Positions 20,250 to 62,580 of a stretch of DNA of 64,000 nucleotides are shown piece after piece (the first letter of the stretch is position 1; every line of letters starts with the position of its first letter). This stretch comes from Rhododendron vialii (lineage: Eukaryota; Streptophyta; Magnoliopsida; Ericales; Ericaceae): the NCBI RefSeq assembly GCF_030253575.1, contig NC_080561.1:3959001-4023000 (forward strand), given 5' to 3'. Under the pieces are notes generated by a model. It was given only the letters and a program-made list of their open reading frames with translations. It made no database searches and was not told the DNA's origin. Both the position numbers and the translations under genes were made by a program.

Positions 20250-21699
20250 GTTCCCAATATCTTCCTGTCATATGCTGTCTGAACAATACATGAGAGTTTT
20301 GGGTAGTTTTTATTGTTACCAGACTGATTCAGTTTTCCATTATTGCCTCGAGCATAGACTTTCCTATCTTTATTTTGGTTGTGGTAATTCAATTGTGCTT
20401 CTCTTCTTCCCACCCGCATTAGTCAATTCATCTCTTCTTCTTCTTCTGTAGTGATGTGCTTGCTAAGCAGCAAGCATGAAATTGTATTCTTTGATTAATT
20501 TTAGTTATAGATGGTGAAGCACACCATTAAGCAGCAGTTACTATTGATCGACCTTGGAGGAAGTTCAGCTAAATGTGGGTCGGTGTTTATCCGGATCTCT
20601 TCCTCTCTTTTGGCCATTGGATCTGGACTGTGAAGCTCCGCTTTCACCCAGACCCACAAAATTAGACTACACACTAAATTAGACCACTGTTAGTGCCTAA
20701 CTAGCTGTTGATGAACGGTAGCAAGCACTCCGATGGCTAGGCCTGTCTTTGAGTGAAGGAAAATACAGAGCTAAGATGTGACAAGGACGGCATACCTCAC
20801 CAGGATTTGGTCCTTTACTTTTTATAAGATATAAACAAGAACGGCGTACAGAGCTAAGCCTGCTCGTCCCAAGCTAGTAGGCATCACGGATAATCGTTTA
20901 TGGTCATGATGTCATGCTGGATTTAGGTACCAAGTATTGGATATATGGCGTGCCACAATAGCACAATCCATGAGCAGTGCGTTGGGATTTTCCATTGTAT
21001 GGAAAACTCAAGATATGGCAAAATCGACTGAATTGCCGGATACTTTCAACCAACAATGCAGGTATCCAAACGCAGTCGAAGAGTAGTTATCTTTTATATA
21101 GAGGATGATTTGTTGAGAATTTTATAGAGTTCTTTCTCCAATCAAGGTTTAACTTGAGTGGTAGAATTCTTACGGAATGCATTGGTCTTGTGAGGGACCC
21201 TTGTAAATGTTTTTGTAAGTAATTTTGAAGCCTCTTAGGTTCTATCACGTACTCTGTTGGGGCCAATCTCTACAAAGCTTTGCTCTGATTTTAATTGGGC
21301 CTCTTGCTAATGAACGATAATTAGTTGAGGTGCGCATAAGCTGATCTGAACACCTAAAGAATCCAAAAGCGTAGAAGATTTAAATGGTCATTTTAACTTC
21401 TAAAAGGAATGATGTGAGTGTATCAAGTTACCATTGACTAGTTCAAAAACATAAACTACCATGTTGTGTCATCTCGATGCTTTGTGTTTTGTGCATTCCA
21501 TGTCCGCATATGTGCTTCTTAGATTATAAGAAACCTATATAACTAACCTGTACCGCGTTGGCAATCTAGGACGGATGCATGATATCAAAACCAAAAAGGC
21601 AAATGTACATGTACTTACAAGTACAACCAAAATGATATGAAAATTTGTTGTTAGGGGTGGGTAGTAATTTTCTTAAAAGGAATGACCTAGGGGGTCAAA
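20250..21699. other. Intergenic; carries a fragment of duplicated module M
   Basis: RPL31 3' UTR, then no gene. Positions about 20926-21112 (AATCCATGAGCAGTGC, AAGATATGGCAAAATCGACTG, GTAGTTATCTTTTATATA) match the 3' part of module M at 32530-32710 and 51870-52060. This is the most upstream trace of the duplicated array that dominates 24-62 kb. Confidence 0.6.
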
Positions 21700-22016
21700 T
21701 CTATATAAAGAAGTTCTTTAAAATTTGGGCTGGCGGTCTTCTTTTGTCCATTTGATCAATTCTGGTGATAATAATCTGGCAACATTGAAATATCTTATGT
21801 GCACCTACTAAAAATATTCACAAATGGATGGTCCTCCATGTAGACGATTTAGAAAAATCTATATAAAAGAGTTCTTTGAAGTTTGGGCTGGCGGTCATTC
21901 TTTTGTTCTTTTGGTCAATCCTGGTGATAATAACCTGGCAACATTGACATATCTTATGTGCACCTACTAAAAATGTTCACAAATGGATGGTCCTCCATGT
22001 AGATGATTAAGGAAAA
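21700..22016. repeat. 158-bp tandem duplication upstream of the glycine-rich gene
   Basis: Block 21700-21857 recurs at 21858-22016 with an offset of 158 bp and about 10% differences. Each copy begins with a TATA-like word (CTATATAAA at 21701 and 21859) and ends GGTCCTCCATGTAGA(C/T)GATT. The gene at 22096 therefore has two nearly identical candidate core promoters. Confidence 0.8.
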
Positions 22017-22095
22017 ATAGCAATTGTTAAACCATGCGGCCTATAAGAACTCTCAAAATGTTCAAGCATGTACAACACAAAGGATCCTCAAGAAA

Positions 22096-22839
22096 ATGGG
22101 ATTCAAACTTGAAAAAGTTCTCTTGCTCATAATCGTATCATTTGCCACTCAAACATTTGCAACCTTAGCCGATGAGAACTTGTTCAATGAAAGGGAAACC
22201 TTCTCTGGGGCTCGTGTAAATGAAACACGAGAAGAATACGCAAAAGTAGGCAAGGACTCATCTCATAAACTTCGCCTGAGAGACCACTTTAGGTTTCTCA
22301 AGGGATTTAAAGGAGGATTTGGTGGAGGCGGATTTGGTGGAAGCAAAAGTTTTGGAGCAAGCGGAGGAGGAAGTGGAGCAGGCGGAGGAGGTAGCGCAGG
22401 AAGCGGCGGAGGAGGTGGAGCAGGCGGAGGAGGTGGCACAGGAAGCGGAGGAGGAGGTGGCACAGGAAGCAGAGGAGGAGGTGGCGCAGGAAGCGGAGGA
22501 GGTAAAGGAGGAGGCGGAGTCGTGGGAGGAGGAGGTAAAGCCACAGGAGGAGGAGGCATTGGAAGCGGAGGAGGTAAAGGTGGAGTCGGTGAAAAAGGAA
22601 AAGGCAGTAAAGGCAAAGAAGTTGAAGGAAGTAAGGGAAAAGAAGGTAAAGGAATTAAGGGCAAAGGAGGCAAAAAAAGTAAATCTCGCAGCAAAGGCAA
22701 CAAAGGAGTAAAAGTAGCAGCCGTCACCGGCACCGGAGGAACGAGATCGGGTGGTCTAAGGGCTCATGTTCCCACCATCCTCTTACCCCTGACGAGCTTC
22801 ATTGTCGTGACACCAGTTCTTCTTGTTTTCCTGCCATGA
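22096..22839 (+). CDS. Secreted glycine-rich protein
   Basis: I chose the ATG at 22096 over the in-frame one at 22024 because it starts a clean signal peptide (MGFKLEKVLLLIIVSFATQT, cleavage near residue 22). The result is 247 residues in one exon. After a short charged segment (residues about 25-65) comes a Gly/Ser-rich domain of GGGG(A/T)GSGG-type repeats (about 70-170), then a lysine-rich KGKGSKGKE part (about 170-215). The hydrophobic C-terminal tail (VPTILLPLTSFIVVTPVLLV) resembles a GPI-attachment or membrane-anchor signal. Glycine-rich proteins of this kind are usually cell-wall structural or signalling proteins; the specific role is unknown. The long Pro-rich and Glu-rich frames over the same span are shadows of the GGN repeats. 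Expression is not shown by sequence. Confidence 0.75.
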   Translation: MGFKLEKVLLLIIVSFATQTFATLADENLFNERETFSGARVNETREEYAKVGKDSSHKLRLRDHFRFLKGFKGGFGGGGFGGSKSFGASGGGSGAGGGGSAGSGGGGGAGGGGGTGSGGGGGTGSRGGGGAGSGGGKGGGGVVGGGGKATGGGGIGSGGGKGGVGEKGKGSKGKEVEGSKGKEGKGIKGKGGKKSKSRSKGNKGVKVAAVTGTGGTRSGGLRAHVPTILLPLTSFIVVTPVLLVFLP

Positions 22840-23890
22840 TTCTCTCAAACCTTGTAATTTAGACCCAGATTCGCGAGGACATGGTATGTTGTTTGTGTGT
22901 TGTTTGAAGGGTCCAAACTTGTACGAGGTTTTCTAACGTAAGATATAAGAAATGGCAAATGAATGTATTAAGTTTATGGTCGATGTTTCATTGCTGAATG
23001 GAGAGCGGCCGCAACTATACTAGTTTGCTCAGTCTTTTATTTGATTTTAATTCAAACATGATGGGTTTTTTTTTTTATCCGATTCAAACATGATGTTATT
23101 ACCTGAATTTCTATGGTATTACCAAAGCATTAACATCTTCAGAATCAGCACATGGATCTGACCCGTGATCCTGCCCCACCCGTGACGTTACGGGTTGCAT
23201 GGCCTGTTTGGGCTTATATCAACCATTTTATTATTTCCGACAATGGAAATTCCGAGCATTTTCATTTTAATGGCGTTCTTTATGTTTGAGCACTGCGCTA
23301 ACTACTTCTACATCGCTTGAGAAGATTGCAAAGTCCTCTTCGTTGAGGCAAAAAAGGGTACCAGCGGTGGATTTCATCTACTGTGCACAAGTCGTCTGTT
23401 CAAAAGTTAGTCCATCCACACTCAGACCAACTATGGTCCTGGAACATTTGCGCATCTCAATCACGCGGCCAAGGCATTTGTTTCTCCTTTTCGAGGGAAA
23501 CAAATACTCATGAGGTTAATCAATCTCAGGTAATTTTAAATCTTGTCTACATCAAAAACCGAACGAAATAAAACTAGCTTGATCGAGTTTGATATATAGA
23601 TGCTCAGTAAGATTTAATAAAATGTTCAAGCTTGATTTGTTTATGTAAAAAACCAATCTTGAACGCATTGTTGGATAACCTCCCTTCTAAGCTTTATGAG
23701 GTAGTTTTGTCTGATTTGGGTATTGTCCCTTTGTTTTGTAAACCCATTTTCTTTGAAACACTTGCATGCCCTTTTGAGAACAAGACAAATGCAGTCATAA
23801 TAATAATAATATCAAATACAGATTACGAGGGCGAGGCCTTAAAAATAAAAAACTAAAACAACGAGAAAATTAAAAGATCATACAGAGATT
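22840..23890. other. Intergenic, no gene seen
   Basis: The first part is a likely 3' UTR of the glycine-rich gene. Short frames at 23286-23571 have no recognisable content. Nothing else is supported. Confidence 0.45.
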
Positions 23891-24416
23891 TTTATTCGAG
23901 AATTTACATAGTTTGTTCTGATCAAGGTTCGAGGTCGGTCCATATGTTTGACAGTCGGGCAAATCACGGCCATACTTCTCAAATCCCCACAAGCCATGAA
24001 TGGTGAATGATCTGTTGGGGGAGGGTTTGATTTTGAACACGGCTTCGTAAGTTTCATGTCATGCAGAAGGAAGAAGGCCGCTGGACCACAAGTTTGAAAT
24101 AGGCCGGTTGGACTTGGAAGGTTTGAGGCGGTTGTCTCCAAGTCCAACCAGCCTATTTCAAACTCGCAGTCCAATCCCATCAGTTGGACAACCGCTCAAA
24201 CCTTCCAAGTCCAACCAGCCTATTTTAAACTCGCAATCCGATGGCCTACTTCCTTCTGCAATGATGCTCTGCTCGAAATCAAACCCTCTCCCCAACAGAT
24301 TCACCATTCATGACTTGTGGGGATTTGACAAGTATGACCGTGCTATGCCCGACTGTCAAACATATGGACCGACCCCAAAACTTGATTAGAACAAACTATG
24401 TAAATTCTCGAATAAA
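23891..24416. mobile_element. Foldback element, arms of about 235 bp
   Basis: The left arm (23891 to about 24137) pairs with the right arm (about 24186-24416). Both share TTTATTCGAGAATTTACATA, GACAGTCGGGCA, CAAATCCCCACAAG and GGTTGGACTTGGAAGGTTTG in inverted orientation, at roughly 85-90% identity. The roughly 50-bp loop also contains a short direct copy of AAGTCCAACCAGCCTATTT. No transposase is encoded. A transcript would fold into a long hairpin. The element abuts the downstream end of the defensin-like gene. Confidence 0.75.
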
Positions 24417-24438
24417 CTAAATAAGTTGCACTGAACGC

Positions 24439-24796
24439 CTAGGTTCGAATCGGGCAAGGATGAAAACAAGAACACTGAGACCCCGAGCAATATCCACGAC
24501 CACCACACTGGGATTTTCCATTTGATGGAAACTTCTTCAAGCATTCTGCATTGCAGATATCTTCCTTGCATGGCTGTGGAACTTGGAGGACTTCTCCGCA
24601 GATCCTTTCCTTTCCGCTGCAGCCGTCGTTGACCCTGATTTGCCGCTTTCCTTCAACACGTACATGGAAAAAAACATTAAAGTCGTATCCCTCGTACGCG
24701 TGTGGAAAAATTCATATTCTCATATAGATCTTCTGTCTCTAATATGATCCTCTAATATATATTTAACTTGAATTTCTTTCATCGGAAATATGTATA

Positions 24797-24832
<36 letters not shown>

Positions 24833-25135
24833 GAAGAGCTTTCGCCGAGCCAAAAAAAAATATTGATAACCATAACCTTCTCCTTGAATATCGGTGATCA
24901 ATAAAAATGACATGTACTAATCATAACAATGCCAATGATTATATATACAATAATAGTAGTAATAAGGTTCTCCATTTGTCTGGTGACGGAGGAGGTTATT
25001 ATTTTCAGCCAAAAAAAGGCAAAAAACAAATAATATAGCATGAAAAGAAATAGAAAAATCAAACATGAAAGATGTACCATTAGTAATATCGAAGAGGCAG
25101 AGCACCAAAATAGCAGCAATGAAGAGTCCCTTCAT
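24439..25135 (-). CDS. Defensin-like cysteine-rich secreted peptide (copy A, intact)
   Basis: Exon 1 is 25135-25078 and exon 2 24650-24439, with a 427-bp intron that contains a (CA)n run. Splicing AATG|GTACAT to TTGAAG|GAAAG in phase 1 gives 89 residues. Exon 1 is almost exactly the signal peptide MKGLFIAAILVLCLFDITN, the typical layout of plant LCR/DEFL genes. The mature part (KRQIRVNDGCSGKERICGEV and on) holds ten cysteines, including the CSalphabeta signature CKEDICNAEC (C-x3-C), a GRGYC gamma-core-like turn and a final CSC...C. Such peptides act in the apoplast as antimicrobials or as pollen/seed signalling ligands; which applies here is unknown. The ATG directly abuts the truncated synthetase exon at 25136. 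Three broken relatives lie at 32923-33592, 52266-52345 and 59880-60298. Confidence 0.78.
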
Positions 25136-27235
25136 GCCTCTCTTTCAATGTTTCCTCAAGAATTGCAACTGCTTCTGTGTAAGAAATACGGACAAATTTG
25201 GTCGAAGAAACCATTCTTGGACGATCAATTGCACTTTTGTCCAAGTTCTTAACCATAAATTCCATATCATCACGGCAATTGTCAAGTAACCATTGACACA
25301 AGGATCTAACATACGCCACCGCACAGTTCATGTCATCCTGCAATAATGTAAGAACGAAGCATCTTTTTGAACATGTTGAACAAGTTCACATATTTTAGGC
25401 TCCATCATCTGGAGCACTCTCAAAAACCTAAATATTTACTTCCTAATGTAATAAATAAATAATTCGTCTCTTACCTGAATATCTGCAAATGCTATTTCAG
25501 GCTCCAACATCCAGAACTCTGCCAGATGCCTTGAGGTGTGTGAGTGTTCTGCTCGAAAAGTTGGACCAAATGTATAGACACTACTGAGGGCACATGCAAA
25601 AGTTTCAACATGAAGCTGTCCAGAACCAGTCAAAAATGCTTGTCGGGCAAAGAAATCTTGGGAGTAATCAATCTTCCCGTCCTTGTTAGCTTAAATCTCT
25701 CTTCCAGCTTTGAGAGACTTTCTTAAGCTTGCTAGTTCCGTGACAACAGCACTTATTGTTTCCTTATTGGCTTTGGTGGATTTCAGTTGAACAACAGCCT
25801 CTCCTTTCTCCGTGACAAGTAGCTTAGCCGACATCAGCTTCAGATGGAGGAGGATTCTTAATCAACTCCTTCTCCAACCTTTCAGCATTGCTAATCAAGG
25901 TTGTGACTTGGAACATTTCTCCTGCACCTTCACAATCACTGGTGGTGATTAGAGGAGTGTGAACGTAAAGAAAACCGTGCTTCTGGGAGAATGAATGGGT
26001 TGCATAAGGCGAAGCATTGCGGATGCAAGCAATTGCAGAAATCTGAATACAAAGACAAAACATTACTGTCACCATAAGCTAAGTTCAAGAAGATGGAGGC
26101 ACGACGGGAAACATATGATGATTTTACATGCGAGAATGCTCGTGTATGTCTGTGAATGAGATGAAACAACCACCAATTTCTACCCAAGTTCTTAGCAGCA
26201 GTTATTTGTTACAGCCAATCAAGGCCGCAATTCGTTACCGGCATCCACAATCTGATTTTATGATTTCCAAAATTCATCACTCAGAACTATCAAACCAACA
26301 AAAATCTTCAGTTAAACATAATTTATAAAAAAAAGTTAATTTACGTACAAATACATGGGAAGATGGGCATATATAGTGTCGGTTTTTGGTTGAACATGAA
26401 TTTAATCGTATCAGCACCATACTTAAGAAAATTGCAGGCACCTGTAATGACATGAATTTACGAGGAAAAATGTGTAACAAAAATGATAGGGACACAGACA
26501 TCTGTGCACATATCCATGCGTTGTCACAGCTGTGTCTGAACCGTCTGATGCATGTGTACCCCCGTTTACTATGCAAGATCCAAGTGTAGCCAACGGTCCT
26601 AAACACATTTGTGTTCCAATCTGTGCACGGACATTTATATCCGAAGCATTGCTCAATTTGTGAATACTGTGTTGCTTCATCATGATATCAATTCCACTTA
26701 ACTAATCATGGTATCAATTGTCAAATTCCAATCACTTCAATACCACATTTTTCAGCCTAAAGAACGTAACTTTTAGAAAATGAGGCGCGTTCGGAGGTGG
26801 ATAATATGCATACATGATGATAAGCTAGAATTTCAATACACGTCTCATAAATATCAATGCATATCTCGGTTCCAGTTATTGATGCAACTTTTACACTAGG
26901 CGGTGTTTAGCATTTTCCTTCCAAAATTCCTATTACTTAGCAATATCGATCTACAACCGAAATATAGTAATCAGAGTAAAAATTCGCAAATACCGTATTG
27001 GTTCTAGGTCGAAGATGAACGTAATCCCTGAGAGACTCAAGGGTAAGCCTAGTCTGAGGCAACGGGTACTTAGCCGGATCCACAGTCCCCAAATCGAGAA
27101 TCATCCGAACCCCAATAAGCTCGACCCTCTGCTTCGCCTCTACCGGCGGCACCTTCAACTCTCTCTCCACGTGCACGCACGTGCCGGTCGCCACCAGCTG
27201 GCTCAGCTGTCCCACGGCCCCTTCGACAATTACCC
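25136..27235 (-). pseudogene. Cytosolic-type asparaginyl-tRNA synthetase fragment, copy A
   Basis: Three exon blocks in gene order on the minus strand are recognisable. At 27235-26994 is the distal half of the OB-fold region (GTCVHVERELKVPPVEAKQR, TVDPAKYPLPQTRLTLESLR). At 26042 to about 25475 is the start of the class II catalytic domain, with [20 protein letters not shown] and motif 2 ([20 protein letters not shown]). At 25337-25136 is DDMNCAVAYVRSLCQWLLDN to ETLKER. The 5' exons and the whole C-terminal part including motif 3 are missing. Small deletions and a stop lie in the middle block (after PPPSEADV, and near LKAGRE). The last block ends exactly one base before the defensin-like ATG, on the same strand. 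It cannot make a synthetase; it may serve as a promoter or transcribed leader. Confidence 0.82.
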
Positions 27236-28100
27236 CTGCCGGAATTTCCAATCGCAGGATCCAAGATTTGATTAAAATTACTAGCATTTAGGACAGATTA
27301 CGAGCTCGAATAACGAATACTCCCTCCATCACAAATTGCTAGACTTTTTAGAGAGAGAGAGAGCGAGAGCGAGAGAGTAAACGACGACATTCTTCCCCAC
27401 CTTGGGCGGGTCGACATTTGGGGAAGACTGAAACGACGTGGACGGGTTTTCTTCATGCCTCGCATCTTCAACACCGGAAGTTCATGAAAACGACGTCGGT
27501 TGACTTCATTAGGACTTCTCATCTTGCAGCTGCGAAGTCCATTAAAATGGCGTAGCGACGTCTAATTGGTAAATTTTGAACACGTTCTTGGTTTATTTCT
27601 TGATCTAATCTGGTCAAGTTGTAGATCCTATCAATAATATTGAACCTGGTAAAGATCATTTGAATCGAATTCAGATTATTAAATGATCGAAGATGATAAG
27701 TACGAATTTAATTTTTTGTAAATAGAACTGGCCGCACTTGATCAAACAAATCCTCGCATCATTTACGTGCGAGGTCATATAAAACGACGTCGTAACCATT
27801 TTAGTTTCCCATTACAGGAACTTCGATGGGTAATTGGTAAATTTCGAGCTCACGCTGAATTTATTTGTTGATCGGAACTGTGGAAGTTGTAGATCATGTC
27901 AAGAAGATAAATCCTGATGAAGATTATGTTAATCGAATCCCGATTAGTACGTCATCGGAGATGATTTGTGTCAATTTTTTCTTGTAAAAATAGATTTGGC
28001 TGCACTTGATCAAACCCCTTTTATTGCGGAATAAATTCGCGCCTCCTGGGGCGGGAGAGAGAAAATGTGGGTGGTGGTTCGTTCGGTTCGGCAGAGGAAG

Positions 28101-28171
<71 letters not shown>

Positions 28172-28340
28172 TTGGCATAGTAAGTGGAGTAACAGAGGTA
28201 TCTCTTCCAATCTTCCATTGTTTCATGTTCAGCCCTAATAACTCATTGATTTTCCCCCATTGACTGGTTTTTTCTGCACAGGACGGTGCTAGTCTCGAGG
28301 CTGCACTCGATAAGATTGGCTATGCTTGAAGAAGGCAGGT
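27236..28340. repeat. Array spacer A, with internal duplication and GA tract
   Basis: This sequence recurs beside the synthetase fragments at 38744-39561 plus 40396-40650, and at 62227-62580. It starts with a one-ended Stowaway remnant (ACTCCCTCCATCACAAATTG at 27319) and holds several AAACGACGT(C/G)G words. It also contains an internal, diverged duplication: GTAATTGGTAAATTT ... ACTTGATCAAAC occurs at about 27560-27745 and 27825-28015. A (GA)n run lies at 28105-28165. No gene is supported, although the start of the HISN1 pseudogene segment follows at once. Confidence 0.65.
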
Positions 28341-28521
28341 GTTAGATTTTTCAAAAGGCTAAAGTTGAGTATCGCTTGGGTTCAATTCACCCCTCCATTC
28401 GTTCTTATTAGATTCTCTACATGCATTTGGTTTCCTTCAGCCACATGAATTCTATGTAGCATCACATAAAAGTAAATGTCATTCAACTGCTAATTGCTTT
28501 GTTTGATGCTATTTATGACAG

Positions 28522-31500
28522 GATTGTCAATTGTCAGTCAGGCAAGTGAATCCTCGACAGTACGTGGCCGAAATTCCTCAGGTCTTGTGCTCTGAGCTGA
28601 TTTATTATGTAAATTCGTACCTTGATTATCTTGATTGCATGGTGAGATGAAGGTGGGAAATGACGAAAACGATTTAAGTCACGTAATGCTAACACTCCAG
28701 TTGTGCAGTTTTCAAACTCCAATTGTTTGTAGAATCGTCAGATTACGCAGGTGGGAATGCGAATGAGTTTCGGATATAAGAACTGAACTGCAAATTTCTA
28801 TACTGCATTTGAACTATTATTCTATTTTGTGTAAGCAGCCACATCCGTGAGCATATGGCACAATCACAATTGCAGTTATAAGCTGTTTTTTAGATAACTA
28901 GATAACAAGGTGGTAACCAGCCTGTTTGGGCTTCGCCGCTTCGGTCTTTTAGGTGGGTTTCGGCCCAATGGGAGTCCTTGTTTTGGTTTCTTGCCAAAAT
29001 GTAGGGATTGGATCTCGGATTGGGCAGATGAATGCTTGTTGAGCATGATGTCATTTCCTTGATCCTATTAGTCTTATAACAATTTCAAGATTAATGAAAT
29101 TTTTTTGCTATTAAAAAAAAAAAGGTGGTAACCAGCCTATCTGATAGTGTGCTGTCATTCTCGTCCCAAGTTTTACACTCTGGAAATTCTGAGACTTACT
29201 AGGTTTCGCCTATGTACGTTGTATTTCAATTTTGTCATGTCATATTTCTGCTTGTGTTCAACTATTCCTTCTCTATATCAGTTTTCTTTGTGAGTTGTTG
29301 ATAACAAGTTTCAGTTATGATTTAGCTTCTATTCCATTTTTGTGCACAGCTGGCCCCTAAGTTTATGAAGGATAACGGACTGATGCATGTCACTCTCTCG
29401 ACCGCAGATGGAGCAATAGAGGCAGCTCCTGCGGTGAGATCGAGTTACTTCTTTCTGCATCTTAATAGCTTTCATAATTTTGTACAGCTATGGAATCCCT
29501 GCATCTGAAGTTCTTGCTTTGGGTAGGGGGGCGGTCATGCTGATTTTGCTCAGTTGAACAACTAGACAGTAGGGTAAGGGTATCAATGGATATTTGTATA
29601 TTTTCCAACAAATGTCAAGCAACAGAAGCTTACATGTAACATGCAATGGGCTACGCCAAGTCGCTCACAACATTAAATGTAGATAGTATAATACATGTTA
29701 AGTCTAATAGTTCCTGCTGGTTTTGATGTTATCTGGCTTCTTCTTAATCTAGATGGGCATAGCTGATGCTATCAAGGACCTTGTGAGTAGTGGAACCACA
29801 TCGCGAGAGAGTAAATTTAAAAGAAATCGAAGGTGGAGTAATATTGGAAAGTAAGGTGAATTCTCTTTTGACTTACCAAGCATTTAAAACCAATCTCTTC
29901 GAGAATTTATAAAAAAGGAGGGTCTTTGTTCTATCAAATGGAAGTTGTCTGTACATGTTCTTACCTTGTCTTCAGGCTGTTCTTGTTGCTAGCAGGAAAT
30001 CCTTGACCCAACGGAAAGGTGTATTGGACATCACTCATGAAATCCTTGAAATATTGGAGGCACATTTGAGGGCAGCTGGCCAGCTCACGGTTTGCAGAAT
30101 TTGTTTCTTGTGTTATGGTTGCAGTTTTCCTTTACTGTCATTGTCTCACTCTGTTCATTTCAGGTTACTGCAAACACAAGGGGAACCAGTGCAGAGGAGG
30201 TGGCGGAAAGAGTACTGTCTGGACGTCCCCTTGAATTGAATGGACCCATGCACTTTTGATGCATTTGAATTGCATGAAATGGGGTCACTAAAGGAAATTG
30301 GTGGGTTTTATCGTCTTTATTAGTGCATGAGATCGTTCTAATCTCCATGTGTTAGACCTGTTGTCATTAGAGACATGCCTAGGATTTCCAAATGTAGGTT
30401 GTTGAACACTTCACTCTATGATCTGGTCAATAACATAGGAGGATTTTTGAACACTTCACTCTGATCTGGTCAATTACATAAGAGGATTTTTGAACACTTC
30501 ACTAGAGTGTTGAGCCCAATAATTTCATGTCGGGAACAAAACCCTGTACTTGGATGGAGTGATTTTTGAATTTCACTTGTGATTTTTGAGTGAGGCGTGG
30601 GAGGCTACATTTGAATTTCACTTTCAATGAATTTCCACCTATTGACCTTGCCACCTTGTCAACCAAGCTATGTATTTATTATTAAGTGTTGATGTTGGTC
30701 TTCTCCATTTTAAGAATTGCATTAACCCTTTCATGTTTGTACACGCAGGGAACCACCGTTAGTCCAGTTTTTTTGCAAACGTGATGGGAGAATAGCAGCA
30801 GATTACTATGCCGATAGTCATATGTGTACCCAAAAAGCTGCTTTATAAGTCTACTCAACAACTGAGAGCTGTAAGACAATTTTCTTTCTTTACTATGCCA
30901 TAGCCATCTGTCTAGCCCAAACTTGTGGGACCAACCCTGGGTTACAATTTTTCATGTCAAGTGTTTTTTACATGAAGTTTCCTAAGGCACCTCCCAGCAG
31001 CTTCGATAACATTCCACGCAAAAATGTAAGTTTGAGTCTCCTCAACCCCTTGTAAAAGGAAGGGCATAAGAATTTTATGGATCGATGAAGACTCAAAAGT
31101 ATGATTTTGGAACTACTTGTATAATTTCTCGCTCAGTAGGCCTGTAGTTTCAGTGATTCGCAGCTTGTCGATGGTTTTCTAGCAAAAAACCATGATTCAA
31201 GCAAAAAATGCCCGGAAAATGGTTAGTTTTGTTTGAACTCATTGTTTCCATTCTATGTTGTAATTGGTTCTGAATCTTCACCATTCCCTCCTTCTGGATC
31301 TAAGTGTACATTTCAGGACTGCAGCTTCATCTTTCTTAGCTTTTCCATTTTTCCTGTATCTTCGTGAAAGTCTGGGAATATCATAATGGCTTTTTGGAAC
31401 TCGTTGCTTGACTACTTTTGTAATGCAGATCGGAGGCAGTGGAGTTCTTATTCTCCTCTTACATATATTTTTGATGAAGAACCCCTCGATGCCGCGAACT

Positions 31501-31762: not shown

Positions 31763-31765
<3 letters not shown>

Positions 31766-49643: not shown

Positions 49644-49715
<72 letters not shown>

Positions 49716-51360: not shown

Positions 51361-51361
<1 letters not shown>

Positions 51362-51424
<63 letters not shown>
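51362..51424. repeat. (TC)n(CA)n microsatellite, unit B
   Basis: TC run of about 23 units followed by CA. It corresponds to the tract at 31690-31762 in unit A. Confidence 0.9.
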
Positions 51425-51426
<2 letters not shown>

Positions 51427-51431
51427 ACTAA

Positions 51432-51600: not shown

Positions 51601-51739
51601 ATATATATATACACACACACATATACATCACACCCCTACCTCTCTTTCTGTTTCCCCTTTGTCTTCTCTTTTTTGTTTCTCCTCTTTTTTGTTTCTCCTT
51701 TATCCTTCTCCTCCTCAGTCCTCCTGGGCATTCCCTCCA

Positions 51740-52062: not shown

Positions 52063-52265
52063 AAAAAGTTCTTCACTTGCTCGAATAAATCCATTCTAAA
52101 CTCTGATAGTTTTCACTAGGAGAGAAAACAACTAACAAAAGAAATAACATAGATCCAAAAGCATTAGTTTTAAATGCAAAACTGAAAAACATAATCTAAA
52201 AACTTTGATGTAGATGTAACAACGATGAAACACTAATTCAAAACTAAATAAGTTGCACCGAATGC

Positions 52266-52345
52266 CTAGTTTCTAATTGGCGGGCAAGGATGAAAACAAT
52301 AACACTGAGACCCTGAGCAATATCCACGACCACCACACTGGGATT
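52266..52345 (-). pseudogene. Defensin-like peptide fragment (unit B)
   Basis: Only the last 26 or so codons of exon 2 remain (QCGGRGYCSGSQCYCFHPCP, ending PPIRN then stop). Homology ends abruptly at 52345, where unrelated sequence begins. This marks the right edge of unit B. Confidence 0.7.
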
Positions 52346-52822
52346 GAAAGAACTGTAAGCAAAGAGGCAAAGTTTGGAGAGTTATATTTCCGAAGTACCA
52401 AAAAAAATTTTAAAAAAAAAGGGTTTGGAGCGTTCAATGGTAAATATGTGCATTATCATTGTTGCTGATACACCTGTGGCCAAAAAATGTGATTGATAGG
52501 TAGTACTTTTTTGTAGTAACTAATCTACCTAATAAAACACAAGGGTGTCGGGACCACACAAATACAAATTGAAAGAATGACGCGTTGGAAAGGTCAGGTG
52601 AGACCCTTCTCCGGGCTTCTGTTATCGCCGAGCCTGGGCTACAAGGCACTAGGACCTCCTTCGGCGTAGCCTCGGTCAACATCCGTCGGATACGTGGTCC
52701 ATGACATTTGGTTCGGCCTACTACACCTACTAACTTTAAAAAATAGATACTTATTAAGGGAGATTTCAAAATAAAATACTAAACTCTAAAAAATGAATGG
52801 AGGGAGTAGTAAGTAAGTAATA
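52346..52822. other. Unrelated sequence with a half Stowaway
   Basis: No gene is supported. Positions about 52727-52807 (TTAAGGGAGATTTCAAAAT to GGAGGGAGTA) are the right half of a Stowaway-type element without its left end. Confidence 0.45.
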
Positions 52823-53033
52823 CTCCCTTTGTCCCTAAATAAGTGTTCCGTACGCAAAATTAAGCTTTACAAAACATGCATATTTTTATTAAAAATTTTA
52901 ATTTTTTTTCACAATCATAGAACTCATTGCTATCTATTGATTTGTGAAAAAAATTAATTTTTTGAATAAAACAAATGTATTTTTTTGAAGTCCTAATTTT
53001 ACGTGCCGAACACTTATTTAGAGACGGAAGGAG
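52823..53033. mobile_element. Stowaway MITE
   Basis: The ends are CTCCCTTTGTCCCTAAATAAG and CTTATTTAGAGACGGAAGGAG, with TA at 52821-52822 and 53034-53035; 211 bp, non-coding. Confidence 0.85.
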
Positions 53034-53370
53034 TAGGGTACTAACTACTCCAATACTAAGAGAGACAAAAGGAAGAGGACCCACTAATACTAAGAGAGAC
53101 AAAAAGAAGAGGACACAAAGATGGGGCAAATAGTCCCACTTAGTGCGCTGGTAGATAGTACTGGCTTGAGTAGTATTCATTCACGTGGGCCTTCTCCTAA
53201 CGTTTTGTGGTCTTTGTGTAATTGTCTCTTTTATTTTCCTCCTCTCATTTCTCTGCGTGTCAATTGATTTTAACCACCCCAGTGTTCGATATTAATCTCC
53301 TTAAGTCAAATACAACTGTGCGTGGGTCCGACCACAAGGACATGTGAGACCCACTAAAAACAAAGCTAAA

Positions 53371-53469
53371 TGATTTTGTCACTCTATTTTTTGTTGACGC
53401 CACTCTTCTGCAAGTGTATTTTTCACTTGCAGGAAAGTGGTGTTAACAAAAAATAGAGTGGCAAAATCA
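53371..53469. repeat. Short inverted repeat / hairpin upstream of the LIN-like gene
   Basis: Arms of about 45 nt (TGATTTTGTCACTCTATTTT ... CTGCAAGTG and its near complement CACTTGCAGG ... GGCAAAATCA) surround a TATTTTT loop. A transcript would form a long, almost unbroken stem of miRNA-precursor size, but a tiny MITE is an equally good explanation. It lies about 420 bp before the LIN-like start codon. Confidence 0.65.
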
Positions 53470-53887
53470 GCAGCCTACTTAAATCAATTTTCTCCAACAT
53501 TTTTTTCTGATCACATGCTGACATGGTGTTCTTGGCCTCTTAAATAATTTGTCATTCGTCGAGGCTTCCAAACGACGATGACTGTATGTACCGAAATAAG
53601 TTCAGAACTAGTTTTGGATTGACCACATGGTCCACACACACTGAACCGGCCATCCCGGTCCAAACCGATTTGCAAACAGAAAAACTACTCCAAATGGTTA
53701 AAAAGGTTAGTGGGAAAACAAAAAGGAAAATACCAAAACCAATCTTTGTCCTCATTCCTCTGTCTCTTCATCACCACCTGTTGCTCTTTCTTCCTCCCAA
53801 CAGCTGTTATCTTTGTACCTTTGAAAGAATGTTTCTGGCTCATATTTTCCTTTATCATCACAATCTCTAAAACCCATCAGAAAAGGA

Positions 53888-56848
53888 ATGGCATCTCTTC
53901 AAGAATTGCTGTCAGAGGAAGGATTCGAGAAAGGAAAATTCCTCAAAAACCAAAGACGAGTAAGATTCAGAGACAGAAACAAAAGACCAGAAAATGAGTT
54001 CATTACCTTGCCTATATACATTTGCCATGACAAGAGAAGCTTTGATAGCTCCAAGCACAAGGCATTAGAGAGAATTTTGCCAAATGGGCATTCAGTAATT
54101 TCATCCAACAGAAGGAGTTCATCAGATTCTAAGAGTGTTGGTTCAAGGAAAGATGAACCAGCAATTGATGAAGTTGCCATTAGAGCAATTGTTTCCATTT
54201 TGAGTGGCTACATCGGAAGGTACTTAAAAGATGAAACTTTTCGCGAATCTATTAAGAGAAAGTGCTATTCTTGTTTGGAAAGAAGGAATAATGAAGATTT
54301 GGACGATGGGATTTTTGCAAACATGGAACTAGGTATTGAGAGTACTGAGATATTGGTTGAAAACCCAAGGAGTAAGAGTGCATTAATGACGAAGTCATTG
54401 AGGAACTCAATTAGGCTTTTGAGCAGTGTTTCTGGTTCTACTCGTGGAAAACCAAATTCCCACTTCTCTGCTTGTGCACAGCTCTACTTATCAATAGTGT
54501 ATAAGCTTGAGAAAAATGATGAGGTTTCCTCAAGTCATTTGCTTCAAGTTTTCTGTGATTCCCCGTTTATTGCTCGAACGCACTTGCTTCTTGAACTCTG
54601 GGAGCATTTTTTTCTTCCCCACCTTCTGCATATCAAGATTTGGTATAATAAAGAACAAGAGTTTCTATCGAACTTTGAGTATTTTGATAAAGAGAAGAAG
54701 ATGAAGGACTTGAGCAAGGCTTATAATGATCAAATGGACATGGGAACTACTCAGTTTGCTTTGTACTATATGGAATGGCTTAAAGTTGGTGCTCAAGCCC
54801 CTCCTGTTCCTACTGTGCCTTTGCCTTCTGGAACCAGTTATGGATTTTCAAGGAGGAGATCATTAGATTCGTTTACTTCCCGTTCATCCGTCAATAAATC
54901 ATTGTAAGTTTTTAAGATTGACTTGCTCTTTTGTCTAGATAGTGTATGAAAAATTTATCTAAAGTTTATGCATGTGTTTTCGGTATTTTTTTCCTTTAAT
55001 TTTGGAAGATATAGAACTGTTTTTGGCTCCACACGGGTCGAGAGGAGGTCTATGGAACTGGATAACAGAAGTCGAGGTTCGATAAATCCATGGGATCTTG
55101 AGGAAGCAGATAAAAAAGCGTGCACACATGAAGATAATGTCAAGCAACATTGTCATCCTAAAGTGGGTACCTATTTCATCTCAAAATATGTTGGTTTTGA
55201 TATGACCATAGGGAAATTTTACCAATTTTTTAACCTCTTTTCAAACCTTGACAGGACAGAACTATGTCACATAGAAGATTATCAAGACAAAACTGTAGAA
55301 ACACGAAATCTGAATTGTGGCCTCAGACACATAAGTCAGACTCTTTTCGGTGTTTTACCTGCAAAAATGAACCAACACAATGCTTGGTGCATGACAATCG
55401 TATGGGGATAAATGACCTAATTATGACAGGAAAAACACATGTTCCTCCTAGTGATCTCAAAAGGGCAATAACGACCATTTGCTCTTCAGAGAGCCTAGCC
55501 GACTGTGAAATGGCAATCCGTGTGATCACCCAAACTTGGCTTGATTCACATGGAGATCCCAGCATTGAGAAAACGTTGTCAAATGCACAAGTAATGGAGG
55601 GAATGCTACAGGTTTTGTTCATTTCCAATGATGATGAGGTTCTAGAATTGACTATCTCAATGTTAGCAGAATTTATAATGAGGAATGACGCTAATAGGCA
55701 CATTATACTAGATTCAGATCCGCAGCTTGTTATCGTCATGAGATTACTGAGGAGTAGCAGTCTGTTTCTAAAAGCAGCTATTCTTCTTTATCTAGTGAAG
55801 CCAAAGGCAAAACAGATGACATCAATCGAGTGGATTCCACTAGTGCTTCGAGTGTTGGAGTTTGGAGATCAGTTGCAAACTTTATTAGCAGTTCAGTGCA
55901 GTCCACAAGAGGCTGCCTATTACTTTTTGAATCAACTTGTTACTGGTTTTGGCGAAGACAAGAATTTTGAGAATGCTAGGCAAGTTGTTTCTATTGGGGG
56001 GTTGAGCGCGTTGGTGAAAAGGATGGAGAGTGGGCATGTTAGTGAGAAGACTAAAGCTGCTTCAATTATTTTCTGTTGCATTCATGCTGATGGAAGCTGC
56101 CGGCACTATTTAGCCACAAATCTGAACACGGGTCCTATTCTTGAATTACTTGCTTCGGGAAAAGAGAGGAATTCTCAATCGCTTGCTTTTGCGCTGCTAA
56201 CTGAGTTGCTATGCCTTAATCGGTATAATTTTTATTGTTTACATGAGTTCAATACTTTCATTTTTCATTTCATTACCCAATTATCCTTGATCCAAATACA
56301 GCTTAGCATCTCATTGTTATATTAGTAAAGCGGAATTATATATGACAGAAGGACACAGGCGATAAGATTCTTACATGGTTTACAAAGTGGATGGGGAAGC
56401 TTGAACACCATGCATATCTTGTTTGTCAATCTGCAAAAGGCTCGAGTTGAGGAGCGACCATTGCTTGCAGCCGTATTGCTACAGCTTGATCTTCTGGTAA
56501 TTTTATTCCCAGGAATATATGAGTGCATAAAACTCTGATACTCTGATTGATAACAAAAATATTTCAGCTTCAACAATTTACAAAAAGGAACAATAAATAA
56601 ATCAAAAGGTAAATGTCATCAGGAAACGGAACTGATCAAATATTGTCTTATACATTTCGAATGCGCGTTGACATAGCTTTTGTTATGATGCGTTCCTTGA
56701 TTCATTGTGCTTTTGCCATATTGTGTTGTCTTCATCAGAAAAGCTGGATTCCTGTGTTTGTTTTAGTCTCTTAGGAAACAGAAACGTTTCATCTATTTCA
56801 ATGGAAAAAAAGATTGTAACTTCGGCTCTCATTGTTTGGGGTGGTGAA

Positions 56849-56932
<84 letters not shown>

Positions 56933-59280
56933 TACATTAATGTGTGTCCCACTTCGAAGTTTCTATGGTCGTGCTGGAACATTTTTATCAGAGTTCAAAG
57001 CTCTGTTTTTAAGAACTCACCAAACACCCAAAAACAGAAGTACAAAAATTATTTTACATGTAAAAGATTTTGCATGAAAATGTTTTCTTGTTTGTAAAAT
57101 ATTTTATTTAATGTCAAAACAAAGGGCCTTGCTCAAACAAATGGTTTACGAGAGGGAGATCCTTATCTAGTAGCAGTTATGTTGCAGGGAGATCCTCTGA
57201 AGTGCAGTGTATACAGACAAGAAGCAGTAGAGGCAATAACTGCAGCTTTGGATTGTCAAGTGTGTAGTGAATTAGTCCAAGAACAATCAGCCAGAGCTCT
57301 ATTAATGTTGGGAGGACATTTTTCTTACACAGGAGAAGCGACAACAGAAAAATGGCTTTTGAAAGAAGCTGGTTTTGATGAGAACTCAGATGATTCATTC
57401 CAGGGAAAGGATATTATTGTTGCAGAGTTGATGAATTCGGTAATTTTTCCTTATTGCTAGAAAGATCAGAATATTCTCGTAGTTATTATCAGAATCTATA
57501 GATTAGAGTTTGAAAATGTCTGAAGTTGGTGTCTCAATTGATTGCTAACTAGTAGGAACAAAAGGCCTAATCCATGAAGTGAAAGCTTCGACTTATGTTA
57601 AACGAAGAGGATTTCAATTTAATATAACTTCTAATTTTTATCTGCATTCTGCACTAAGATTCAGTAGGTCTCCGAATCATGGACTACTTCTCAAGTGTTT
57701 TCATTTGCTTTACCTTTAGTCAGTTTCTGAAATCAGGTCTGTTCACTGTTTGGTAGTGCTTCCAGTTTTCGTTTCCATTTTCTTGTTGCGGAAATAAAAT
57801 CAATGAACAGTGTGAATGCACGTGCAAAAACAGACTACAAATTTGTAAGCTTTTTTTTTCTTGTGCTCTTCATTTGCTTACTTCACAAGTTTTGGATGGG
57901 AATGTCATCTAAATCTTCATATCAAGAGCAATAGACATAATAACATAGACATGTAACATGACACCAATGCTGACATGTAAAATTTCAAAAATTGTAGGAT
58001 GTCTCACATGGGGGACACATGCAATATGTTAGGGTAAACAAATATTGTATGCCATTTGTAATGAAACGATCATAACAAAATATAATGTAACACTACTTAG
58101 TGAAGTCTAAAGGAGGAGAATATGTAAGAAACAATACTTGTATTCTTTCATGTGTATCTAATTCATAGGCATATTCTTGAAGCGTATGAAGCTTATTTGA
58201 GTTTAGAAAGTTCTACAAAATAGCAGGGTACCTTCTTTAGAGGTGTCTGTGCTTCCCAGTTCAACTCTTCAAGTCTTCAAGGAATGTAAAGGAATCTCAA
58301 TCTCAGTTATAACTTTTCCCCTACAATCCTATATGTTGTATGACAATGGTGCAGAATGAAGAGGACGAAGAAATGCAAAATTGGCATAGGAAAGCAGCTA
58401 TAGTCTTGCTTACAAGCGGCAAGAAGAGATTCCTATCTGCACTTTCTGATTCCATAGCAAATGGTATTCCGTGTTTGGCACGAGCAAGCCTAGTCACTCT
58501 GTCATGGATCTGCAGTAATCTCCATTCGGTTAGCGATGAAAATCTTCAATTGGAAGCATGCTCAACCATTGTTCCATGTTTGATCGAATCGTTGAATCAT
58601 GACAGAGCTCCTGAGGAAAGGGTGCTTGCTTCGTTCACTTTGCTAGCTCTCATAAAGAGTTCAGGTAAACTTTCTTTTGGATCTTCATTAAGCAATAAAG
58701 AAGAGCTTGAACGAAAATAAATTTTCTTGGTATAAGTCTACCTTCAGAATTGGGAAACATCAGTAGCAAATAAACTTCATAAAAAGTTGCCTGCAAAATG
58801 TAGTGCAATCGAATGCTTCCTTTTAGACACCAAAGGGGTACTCCACATTTGTTTTACTAATCTAAAGTTAGATTTCCAGGAAAACCCTCAACAGTGATGT
58901 TATTTTTTCACTCATATATTGATATAAGCCAATACTCATATTTGGGAAGTTATTGGATCTGGATTTTGTCACCAGAGAGTGGTGTTTGGTCACTTTAAAG
59001 AACATGAACCAAATAAGCATGTTTGGCGTCATTTCTCCTAACAAGGGTTGAGTAAAGATGTGGTGGTAACTTTTTCTTGACGAGTTTTGGACGATAACTT
59101 TCTCTTACAGGATGTTTTTCTGAAATCTCATTCGCGGATAAAGGGCTGATGGACCATCTTTGGAATCTATCCCAACTGACATGGACTGCTAAAGAGCTCA
59201 TTTCAATCATCACAAGCAGTTCGAGGCATCAGTTTCTCGAGTTTGGAAATCTACCTAATGAAACTCAGATTCATCAGTAG
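53888..59280 (+). CDS. LIN/CERBERUS-like ARM-repeat protein (no U-box seen)
   Basis: Seven exons join in frame: 53888-54903, 55009-55162, 55255-56222, 56349-56496, 57188-57439, 58355-58664 and 59111-59280, giving 1005 residues. The sequence matches the plant family annotated as 'putative E3 ubiquitin-protein ligase LIN'. The N-terminal conserved region includes MASLQELLSEEGFEKGKFL and IWYNKEQEFLSNFEYFDKEK. A helical ARM-like region from about residue 430 on includes VEERPLLAAVLLQLDLLGDP and ARALLMLGGHFSYTGEATTE. LIN/CERBERUS, needed for rhizobial infection in legumes, has a U-box and C-terminal WD40 repeats. Neither is visible here: no CPI...DPV U-box core, and the protein ends at NETQIHQ. 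It is thus better called a LIN-like ARM protein; ligase activity is doubtful. Intron 4 holds a (TC)n(CA)n tract and intron 5 is 915 bp. It lies between units B and C of the duplicated array, and no disruption is seen. Confidence 0.85.
56852..56931. repeat. (TC)n(CA)n microsatellite in LIN-like intron 4
   Basis: About 28 TC units followed by about 11 CA units, wholly intronic. Confidence 0.9.
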
Positions 59281-59879
59281 AACTCAATTCTTTCTCGATG
59301 CTTGAAAGTCTTCTTGCCCTAGATATATTAAATAATAAATCTTCACCCAATCTGTCAACTGCGGCTTTTTCCACCTTCCTCCTCTAATCTTGTGTGTGCC
59401 TGTGTGTGTGTGTGTGCCTGTGTGTGCGAGGGGTGTTTAAGTACATATAGTGCAGAGTTTCTCTAGGCCGCATTTTCCTTTAAAGCATGGATTTGTTCTC
59501 TGTAAGTAAAGAGATTATTGTCCTTATGAAATTGATCACTATTGCTTCCACGTTATGCTGCAGCCATTTTCATTTACATCTTCTCTTTGAAGTAAAGTCC
59601 AAATATACTTCAATGGTTGAGTAGATTCAAAAGAATAAAGTTTCTGGTGCAATAACATAAACATGCCGAAGATTGGCTGCAATTTGCTTCTCAAAAGATA
59701 TACCCATAAGGCAAGTGTGATTGTGAAACTATGTTAAGGAAGGATCAGAGAGATATAGGATAAAGAATGGAAAGAATTGAGAGATATAGGATAAACATGC
59801 CGAAGATTGGCTGCAATTTGCTTCTCAAAGATATACACACACACAAAAGAGCTTTCGCAGAGTCACAAAATGTTAGAAT
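59281..59879. other. 3' region of the LIN-like gene and junction with unit C
   Basis: A probable 3' UTR with a GT-rich run (about 59395-59430). ACATGCCGAAGATTGGCTGC with its flank occurs twice (about 59662-59700 and 59794-59832), a local direct duplication. ACACAAAAGAGCTTTCGC (about 59837) is a short displaced piece of the defensin-like intron and marks the left edge of unit C. Confidence 0.5.
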
Positions 59880-60298
59880 CGTATCAATCGTACGTGCATG
59901 GAAAAATTCATGTTCTCGTATCGATCTTCTGTCTCTAATATATATCTAACTTTTCTTTCATCGGAGATATGTATAGACACACACACACACACACACAAAA
60001 AGAGCTTTCGCCGAGAACAAAAAAAAAATTTGAAAACCATTACCGTCTCCTTGAATATTGGTGATCAATAAAAATGATATGTACTAATCATAACAATGCC
60101 AATGATTATACAATAATAGTAGTAATGAGGTTCTCATTTGTCAGGTGATGGAGGAGGTTATTATTTTCAGCGAAAAGAAAAGGCGAAAAACAAATAGTAT
60201 AGCACAAAAAGAAATACAAAAAAACAAACATGAAAGGTACCATTAGTTTTATCGAAGAGACAGAGCACCAAAATAGCAGCAATGAAGAGTCCCTTCAT
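59880..60298 (-). pseudogene. Defensin-like gene remnant, copy C (exon 1 and intron only)
   Basis: Exon 1 (60298-60241) is intact: MKGLFIAAILVLCLFDKTNG followed by GTACC. The intron resembles copy A, including the (CA)n run at about 59977-59997. Exon 2 with the cysteines is missing, the intron being cut near 59880. As in copy A, the ATG abuts the synthetase fragment. Confidence 0.75.
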
Positions 60299-62226
60299 GC
60301 CTCTCTTTCAAATGCTTCCTCAAGAATTGCAACTGCTTCTGTGTAAGAAATACGGACAAATTTGGTCGAAGAAACCATTATTGGACGATCAATTGCACTT
60401 TTGTCCAAGTTCTTAACCATAAATTCCATATCATCAAGGCAATTGTCAAGTAACCATTGACACAAGGATCTAACATACGCCACCGCACAGTTCATGTCAT
60501 CCTTCAATAACATAAGAACGAAGCATCTTTTTGAACATGTTGAACAAGTTCACATATTTTAGGCTCCACCATCTGGAACACTCTCAAAAGCCTAAATATT
60601 TACTTCCCAATGTAATAAATAAATAATTCATCTCTTACCTGAAAATCTGCAAATGCTATTTCAGGCTCCACCATTCAGAGCTCTGCTGGATGCCTTGAGG
60701 TGTGCGAGTGTTCTGCTCGAAAAGTTGGACCAAATGTATAGACACTACTGAGGGCACATGCAAAAGTTTCATCTTGAAGCTGTCCAGAAACAGTCAAAAA
60801 TGCTTGTCGAGCAAAGAAATCTTGGGAGTAATCAATCTTCTCGTCCTTGTTAGCTTAAATCTCTCTTCCAGCTTTGAGAGACTTTCTTAAGCTTGTTAGT
60901 TCCGTGACAGCAGCACTTATTGTTTCCTTATTGACTTTGGCGGATTTCAGTTGAGCAACAGCGTCTCCTTTCTCCATGACAAGTAGCTTAGCCGACATCA
61001 GCTCCAGATGGAGGAGGATTCTTAATCAACTCCTTCTCCAACTTTTCAGCATTGCTAATCAAGGTTGTGACTTGGAACATTTCTCCTGCACCTTCACAAT
61101 CACCGGTGGTGATTATAGGAGTGTGAACGTAAAGAAAACCATGCTTCTGGGAGAATGTATGGGTTGCATAAGCCGAAGCAATTGCAGAATCTGAATACAA
61201 AGACTAAACGTTGCTGTCACAATAAGCTAAGTTCAAGAAGATGGAGGCACGACGGGAAACATATGATGATTTTACACGTGAGAACGCTCGTGTGTGTCTG
61301 CGAATGAGATGAAACAACCACCAATTTCTACCCAAGTTCTTAGCAGCAGTTATTTGTTACAGCCAATCAAGGCCGCTATTCGTTACCGGCATCCACAATC
61401 TGATTTTATGATTTCCAAAATTCATATCACTCAGAACTATCAAACCAATAAAAATCTTCAGTTAAACATAATTTATAAAAAAAAGTTAATTTACGTATAA
61501 ATACAAGGGAAGATGGGTATATATAGTGTTGGTTTTTGGGTGAACATGAATTTAATCGTATCAGCACCATACTTTAGAAAATTGCAGGCACCTGTCATGA
61601 TGTGAATTTACGAGGAAAAATGTGTAACAAAAATGATAGGGACACAGACATCCTGTGCACATATCCACGTATTGTCACAACTATGACTGAACCGTCTGAT
61701 GCATGATGACCCCTATTTATTGTATGAGATCCAAGTGCACCCAACGGTCCTAAACAAATTTGTGTTCCAATCTATACACGGATGTTTATATCCGAAGCAT
61801 TGCTCAATTTGTAAATACCGTGTTGCTTCATCATGATATCAATTCCACTTAACTAATCATGATATCAATTTTCAAATTCCAATCCCTTCAATACCACATT
61901 TTTCAGCCTAAAGAACGTAACTTTTAGAAAATGAGGCTCGTTCGGAGGTGGATAATATGCATACATGATGATAAGCTAGAATTTCAATACACATCTCACA
62001 AATATCAATGCATATCTCGGATATCAATACACTGGTTAAGCCTAGTCTGAGGCAACGGGTGCTTAGCCGGATCCACAGTCCCCAAATCGAGAATCATCTG
62101 AACCCCAATAAGCTCGACCCCCTGCTTCGCCTCTACCGGCGGAACCTTCAACTCTCCCTCCAGGTGCACGCACGTGCCGGTCGCCACCAGCTGGCTCAGC
62201 TGTCCGACGGCCTCATCGACAATTAC
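60299..62226 (-). pseudogene. Asparaginyl-tRNA synthetase fragment, copy C
   Basis: Blocks are 62226 to about 62036 (OB-fold part; GTCVHLEGELKVPPVEAKQG, cut before RDYVHLRPRTNT by a deletion that also removes the donor), about 61190-60640 ([20 protein letters not shown] to the motif 2 region) and about 60502-60299 (DDMNCAVAYVRSLCQWLLDN to AIL). It ends at the same defensin junction as copy A, one base earlier in the lysine-rich part. It has several small deletions, and the motif 2 exon is interrupted. Non-functional. Confidence 0.8.
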
Positions 62227-62580
62227 CCCTGCCGGACTTTCCAATCATGGGATCAAAGATTTGATTAATATTACTAGCATTTAGGACAGATTACGAGCTC
62301 GAATAACGAATACTCCCTCCATCACAAATTGCTAGACATTTTAGAGAGAGAGAGTTAACCTTGGGGGAAACGGGACGACGATCTTCTTCCCCGGCGGGTC
62401 GATATTTGGGGACGACGGAAACGACGTCGACCGGGTTTTCTTCATGCCTCGCATCTTCAACACTCGAAGTGTATGAAAACGACGTCGGTTGACTTCATTG
62501 GACTTCTCATCTTGAAGCTGCGAAGTCCATTAAAATGGCGTAGCGACGTCTAATTGGTAAATTTTTAACTCGTTCTTGGT
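62227..62580. repeat. Array spacer C, truncated
   Basis: Matches spacers A and B (CTCCCTCCATCACAAATTGC, GAAACGACGTCG, AAAATGGCGTAGCGACGTC) up to GTTCTTGGTT near 62580, then homology stops abruptly. Confidence 0.75.

Follow-up and report, generated by a model that had tools for sequence, protein, structure and literature searches.

A tandem array of defensin-like peptide and AsnRS gene copies in Rhododendron vialii

Tandem and segmental duplication of plant cysteine-rich peptide (CRP) genes is described in PMC5557327, and the array that we report here is like those cases in that its CRP copies are clustered through duplication. The array lies in a 64,000-nucleotide stretch of the Rhododendron vialii genome (C5:3959001-4023000, hereafter the window). 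It holds copies of a defensin-like peptide gene (DEFL), of the gene for asparaginyl-tRNA synthetase (AsnRS) and of part of HISN1. As far as the relevant portion of PMC5557327 goes, the array differs from the cases there, since a housekeeping neighbour was copied along with the peptide gene and an intact copy survives at one edge. We think it likely that a native DEFL-AsnRS neighbourhood was duplicated in tandem, with filler at the junction, and that it later decayed with DEFL kept twice.

Two other described systems are close. The PCP-A class has eight conserved cysteines in the mature peptide, according to the part of PMC5217362 that treats it. The array peptide is like the SLR1-BP and PCP-A pollen-coat peptides of that part in having a signal peptide, a short mature part and the core cysteine spacing, and unlike them in having ten cysteines, not eight. 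The maize transposon-associated tandem direct duplications, as presented in PMC3744419, share with the array a repeat at the junction that is missing at the duplication end. They differ in that no transposon termini or target duplications are shown here. No paper on this array turned up in the literature searched, with no search aimed at the locus and most subscription journals not covered.

Our comparisons are at the sequence level, in a single genome assembly (532.6 Mb, 13 contigs), between copies within the array and loci elsewhere in that genome. The flanks were read as well (3909001-4123000, a 214-kb region), repeats were mapped by self-BLAST of the window plus flanks, and all array positions are in window coordinates. 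The splice sites of DEFL are our own reading. Counts from the genome profile searches (PF01634, PF07333) are lower bounds.

Layout of the array

Self-BLAST gives same-strand collinear blocks at 20953-25132, 25135-33592, 36587-52345 and 59867-62581, with E-values between copy blocks from 1.3e-24 down to 0. These lie where the first-pass annotation of this DNA had seen the same gene pieces recur at three or more places, probably four, in fixed order and orientation. The modules remain collinear when the flanks are included, and the array runs past the window edge to 77297. The block map is an A tail at 20953-25132, B at 25135-33592, C at 36587-52345 plus 59867-60295, D at 60298-70993 and E to 77297. 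DEFL and AsnRS each have four parts in the array, all of them on the minus strand, and three HISN1-bearing fillers of about 5 kb without their inserts lie between them. PDB sequence matches confirm the gene identities first proposed (AsnRS, 6pqh, 1.3e-15; HISN1, 6czl, 3.6e-24). The AsnRS and HISN1 parts retain introns, so they are genomic and not processed copies. The features are as follows.

20940-24438, minus strand: DEFL_A 3' flank at the left array end; homology begins at about 20940-20953; holds a 3.3-kb insert
24439-25135, minus strand: DEFL_A, exon 1 25135-25078 (MKGLFIAAILVLCLFDITN), exon 2 24650-24439, open reading frame (ORF) of 89 aa
25135-27362, minus strand: AsnRS_B, decayed, cut inside exon 4 at a junction common with AsnRS_D
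27358-32402, plus strand: filler copy B, with a module at 27443-28015, decayed HISN1 at 28331-31616 and a SINE-like insert (SINE, short interspersed element) at 28924-29121
32402-32559, no strand: 157 bp common to B, C and D, not in A and unmatched in the seven HISN1 loci fetched from elsewhere
32559-33592, minus strand: DEFL_B, a pseudogene that has no ATG and reads TGA across the splice junction; its mature frame is open at 32926-33137
33593-36152, no strand: B-C spacer, homologous to the D-E spacer, with an RVT_2 piece at 34016-35050
36153-38870, minus strand: AsnRS_C, decayed, without the last two exons
38866-51743, plus strand: filler copy C, holding a palindromic element at 39562-40395 and an insert of about 7.2 kb at 40650-47816
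51900-52345, minus strand: DEFL_C 3' part, only the 3' flank and the end of exon 2
52346-59866, plus strand: insert in DEFL_C that contains a LIN-type E3 ubiquitin ligase gene
59867-60298, minus strand: DEFL_C 5' part, exon 1 and intron, ATG fused to AsnRS_D as between A and B
60298-62350, minus strand: AsnRS_D, decayed
62351-64000, plus strand: start of filler copy D, which continues beyond the window to about 70.0 kb and is followed by DEFL_D, a spacer and AsnRS_E
70353-70996, minus strand: DEFL_D, open, outside the window
78015-73908, minus strand: AsnRS_E, outside the window, 7 exons, uninterrupted from ATG to stop, 569 aa

Judged from this layout the best reading is four DEFL-AsnRS pairs with three HISN1 fillers, taking DEFL-spacer-AsnRS as the native pair, and we infer that this was the native gene neighbourhood. 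The pairs are DEFL_A-AsnRS_B, DEFL_B-spacer-AsnRS_C, DEFL_C-AsnRS_D and DEFL_D-spacer-AsnRS_E. Blocks A and B abut directly, as do C and D, with an identical junction of DEFL ATG and AsnRS at 25132/25135 and 60295/60298. Pairs 1 and 3 carry one common deletion that fuses the DEFL ATG to AsnRS exon 4. B and C, and likewise D and E, are separated by spacers homologous to each other, and the HISN1 filler is missing at both outer array ends. The copies are adjacent, collinear and on the same strand. This collinearity, together with the same deletion junction at two places, supports the tandem segmental duplication that was first proposed. The array of collinear copies stands, but its unit has to be redefined. 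A unit of AsnRS-HISN1-DEFL is rejected, since what stands at the two ends of the array agrees with DEFL-AsnRS pairs separated by HISN1 fillers.

A SINE does not belong to the unit either, although one had been listed in it, perhaps with a different stretch in mind. The sole SINE-like insert found (192 bp, a 16-17-bp target duplication, poly-A) is private to B, and its site is empty in C, in D and at L030, a HISN1 locus on C11. Neither the 214-kb region nor those fetched loci that were compared hold another match to the 192 bp. The module at 27443-28015, a dispersed 185-bp-pair module, was also considered as a SINE and rejected. No tRNA is found in it, nor does any Rfam family match at gathering score, and it recurs beside HISN1 elsewhere.

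Fates of the peptide and synthetase copies

DEFL exon 1 encodes the hydrophobic leader given above, a phase-1 intron follows, and exon 2 is the mature part. The gene is open in 2 of 4 copies, A and D (90 aa). That the peptide still codes is thus true of A and D but not of B, which has no ATG and carries the TGA, or of C, which is split. DEFL_C is interrupted at 52345/59867 by the 7.5-kb insert, and about 155 bp of DEFL are gone at the site. The further claim that only the peptide still codes fails once the whole array is read, since AsnRS_E (73.9-78.0 kb) is open from ATG to stop.

AsnRS_E has GT...AG at 6/6 introns and is apparently a live gene at the right array end. TIGR00457, searched exon by exon, has 44 matches in the genome, none over the whole-family cut-off. 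The top single score (170.4 bits) belongs to AsnRS_E, and the next are pieces of the broken C5 copies and a pair on C13. Weaker matches, in part perhaps to related synthetases, lie on C6, C7, C12 and C3. The C13 pair is a second AsnRS locus, which is seen as an apparent tandem pair about 8.5 kb apart (C13:5682676-5693928, at 5.683 and 5.692 Mb).

The two genes have had different fates at the codon level. Between DEFL_A and DEFL_D there are 9 synonymous changes and 4 nonsynonymous ones (4/13), which gives dS (synonymous divergence) 0.176, dN (nonsynonymous) 0.019 and dN/dS 0.11 (P = 3e-4). The counts are 7 and 5 for A-B (P = 0.005) and 8 and 9 for B-D (P = 0.016). Among AsnRS B, C and D the nonsynonymous differences, stops included, make up 39/45, 31/36 and 38/46 of the differing codons (0.87, 0.86 and 0.83), so that by this count the decayed copies are without constraint in their codon pattern. 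A Fisher test of DEFL A-D against AsnRS B-C gives P = 2e-4. AsnRS_E compared with B, C and D has nonsynonymous fractions of 0.68, 0.61 and 0.61 (P = 0.083, 0.002 and 0.007 against an assumed neutral fraction of 0.77). The binomial test ignores transition bias, which the AsnRS control covers in part. Retention of the peptide by purifying selection in two copies is supported, because dN/dS is 0.11 for A-D while the decayed AsnRS copies, as internal control, have no such pattern. Here the evidence supports the first-pass annotation, which saw the peptide as kept amid decay. We also infer that the peptide is expressed and has a function.

The private changes, polarized by the A/B/D majority, are 4 synonymous and 0 nonsynonymous in A, plus one in-frame codon loss; 5 and 3 in D; and, with the stop counted, 2 and 6 in B. 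At codon 62 each of the three has a state of its own. C agrees with D in the nonsynonymous T>N state, and with B in the nonsynonymous S>Y state and in one synonymous state. DEFL_A is therefore the best-kept copy, though its own promoter is lost, its 5' flank from the ATG onward having been swapped for AsnRS_B sequence. One can imagine that DEFL_A, cut off at its ATG and joined to a decayed AsnRS, is a working gene under new control. We put this forward tentatively and regard it as rather doubtful.

It must be noted that several points count against our preferred account. The DEFL sample is small, at 13 substitutions. Among B, C and D the AsnRS exons have diverged a little less than the introns (exon/intron 0.048/0.052, 0.040/0.064 and 0.053/0.068), and full neutrality predicts no such deficit. 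The C13 locus means that AsnRS_E is not the sole live candidate. Gene conversion could be another cause of the likeness of A and D. If the conversion were recent it would replace selection as the explanation, and conflicting shared sites do occur among the array copies in some stretches, though they are few. However, conversion would lower both kinds of divergence, yet in the same exons the synonymous values are high (0.14-0.18) and the nonsynonymous values low (0.019-0.045). We consider it improbable, and purifying selection the better account. Exon 2 is only modestly less diverged per site than the intron (A-D 11/212 against 28/357; B-D 14/215 against 40/363), so the case for selection rests on the codon pattern.

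Pfam SLR1-BP (PF07333) matches the array peptide, which is divergent and has ten cysteines. DEFL_A scores 23.6 bits over a cut-off of 22.7, which is a small margin, and in the genome search the places in A, B and D score 23.7, 23.6 and 24.4 bits (E 0.02-0.04). At least 20 places in the genome exceed the cut-off (E up to 0.1), 3 of them in the array. The 17 outside it have at most 36% identity to DEFL_A over BLAST matches of at least 34 residues; L043 reaches 43% over 7 residues only, and L048 and L055 have no BLAST match to DEFL_A. All ten cysteines are kept in A, B and D. Eight align to the family core, and the extra two are C10 and C54 of the mature alignment. The total of ten hints at a fifth disulphide. 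The CSalpha-beta defensin fold has the order beta-alpha-beta-beta. A low-confidence AF2 (AlphaFold 2) model from three sequences (mean pLDDT 67, pTM 0.51) predicts strand 16-22, helix 29-39 and strands 51-55 and 58-64. A PDB sequence search with the peptide returned four weak matches, the best at E 0.053.

In the earlier reading, the block was chimeric before it was amplified, and the array may be a place where secreted cysteine-rich peptides are born. Four DEFL parts, two of them open, fit this, and there are other close family pairs (C4 13.699/13.706 Mb, C6 31.479/31.494 Mb). However, 2 of the 4 DEFL copies have died, the two open copies have stayed similar to each other, and no new peptide is seen. 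The block is chimeric insofar as the HISN1 stretch is foreign and recurs elsewhere. DEFL-spacer-AsnRS looks native, though, and AsnRS_E shows that the AsnRS pieces go back to a complete gene. We hold the birth-ground reading to be unlikely. The array is best read as a case in which tandem segmental duplication led to ordinary birth-and-death of a DEFL gene.

The HISN1 filler and the history of the array

The PF01634 search found at least 8 matches in the genome, 1 in the array and 7 elsewhere, and 10 kb were fetched around each of these seven. All 7 loci match the array HISN1 DNA, and 5 of them (L032-L036) also have the 27443-28015 module. L030, possibly the parent HISN1 gene, has a HISN1 exon 1 to which nothing in the array corresponds, and its fetched 10 kb are free of the module. 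HISN1 divergence is 0.044-0.071 among the array copies, and 0.053-0.111 (two stretches) or 0.172-0.187 (a third) against L030. The dispersed copies share sequence past the ends of the array filler, which must therefore be a truncated part of some larger repeat. At L034 (C4:1865300-1875299) a HISN1 copy sits inside inverted arms of about 950 bp built of the 185-bp-pair module (with L037 and L038), and more HISN1 pieces lie outside the arms. We looked for element ends of the HISN1 repeat at the fetched loci, and no termini or target duplication could be defined. At L033 (C11:36275600-36285599), where the module is present too, there is a tandem duplication that repeats roughly every 6 kb; its repeated ORF resembles a 2OG-oxygenase, a label given by eye.

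A mobile element, Helitron-like or Pack-type with terminal inverted repeats, might have carried the AsnRS, HISN1 and DEFL pieces jointly and inserted repeatedly. The seven other places of the HISN1 part, the adjoining module in five and the inverted arms at L034 are what one would hope to see. Other results count against it. An 801-bp, mostly intronic AsnRS query has 6 genome matches, all in the array (B, C, D and three pieces of E), although the absence of further matches with it does not prove rarity. The DEFL relatives elsewhere are the distant ones described above, and the filler is truncated, lacks defined ends and continues at the dispersed copies. We find this explanation very unlikely. 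The AsnRS query also rejects dispersal of every module independently, insofar as one query can.

Tandem duplication of a native neighbourhood would have gone as follows. A minus-strand DEFL and AsnRS neighbourhood would first have been duplicated, with the right breakpoint in AsnRS intron 1, about 30 bp into MITE-like sequence (MITE, miniature inverted-repeat transposable element), and the left one in the DEFL 3' flank, near 20940-20953. A piece of the dispersed HISN1-bearing repeat would have filled the junction. A subsequent deletion would then have fused the ATG of one DEFL copy to AsnRS exon 4. More duplication, most likely by unequal exchange, would have produced the present number of four gene pairs with three fillers. 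AsnRS_E at the right end, likely the parent gene, would have stayed intact as the other three decayed, and two DEFL copies would have been lost while purifying selection kept the other two.

In AsnRS intron 1, B, C, D and E share about 30 bp of the element end, which we take to be that of a MITE, and then diverge. A first duplication followed by internal duplication predicts that E is the outlier in the AsnRS introns and that A is more distant in the DEFL flank. The intron divergence of E from B, C and D is 0.106-0.117, and 0.052-0.068 among these three; the exon values are 0.060-0.065 and 0.040-0.053. The DEFL 3' flank gives A-B 0.179, A-C 0.172 and B-C 0.101. Beside the deletion, where the common deletion of AsnRS B and D predicts a B-D link, the shared derived sites favour it (BD 9, BC 5, CD 1 of 1290 sites, with E as outgroup).

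Other data do not fit this history so well. The next AsnRS stretch has BC 5, BD 2 and CD 0 of 712 sites, and three HISN1 stretches with L030 as outgroup have BC/BD/CD of 1/6/4, 0/2/0 and 0/2/2. Direct evidence for exchange between copies is thin, and the counts no more than hint that the pattern shifts from one part of the unit to another. A mosaic reading of the copies is weakened, since three copies without an outgroup cannot show one and the outgroup counts are small and mixed. The DEFL-flank comparisons with D are 83 poorly aligned sites (A-D 0.289, C-D 0.181, B-D 0.133) and are unusable because D is truncated there. The filler is missing at both ends, so plain recombination of two filler copies does not explain the first duplication. 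Its cause may have been a switch of template in the course of repair, or alternative transposition (compare PMC3744419).

Neighbouring inserts and a probable route of family growth

The array has collected several inserts. The 3.3-kb insert of copy A holds an inverted-repeat element (23891-24416) and an ORF (22096-22839) whose 247-aa product would be rich in glycine, starts like a leader and has no Pfam match. The RVT_2 piece of the B-C spacer, presumably Copia-like, is in a stretch missing from the D-E spacer. The insert at 40650-47816 has a NAM-associated ORF (43010-43675) and a transposase ORF (44224-45573; Plant_tran, DDE_Tnp_4) that we assume to be PIF/Harbinger-like; an array of 20-bp units at 43790-44005 lies beside both. 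The LIN gene in DEFL_C has ARM_LIN, ARM_LIN_2nd and ARM_LIN_C domains and long open exons, and no terminal inverted repeats were found for its insert. A 2.9-kb insert in copy D (62582-65472) has internal tandem repeats (98- and 135-bp units within the window) and is matched at L036. At 6701-7615 there is a 466-bp tandem duplication with copies 98% identical.

The array looks like an ordinary route for the growth of such peptide families. The same set of duplications multiplied a housekeeping gene along with the gene for a secreted peptide, which makes their fates comparable. Two copies survived in the case of the peptide, and one in that of the synthetase. The start codon falls exactly on a rearrangement junction, so replacement of the promoter of a defensin-like peptide becomes testable by expression.

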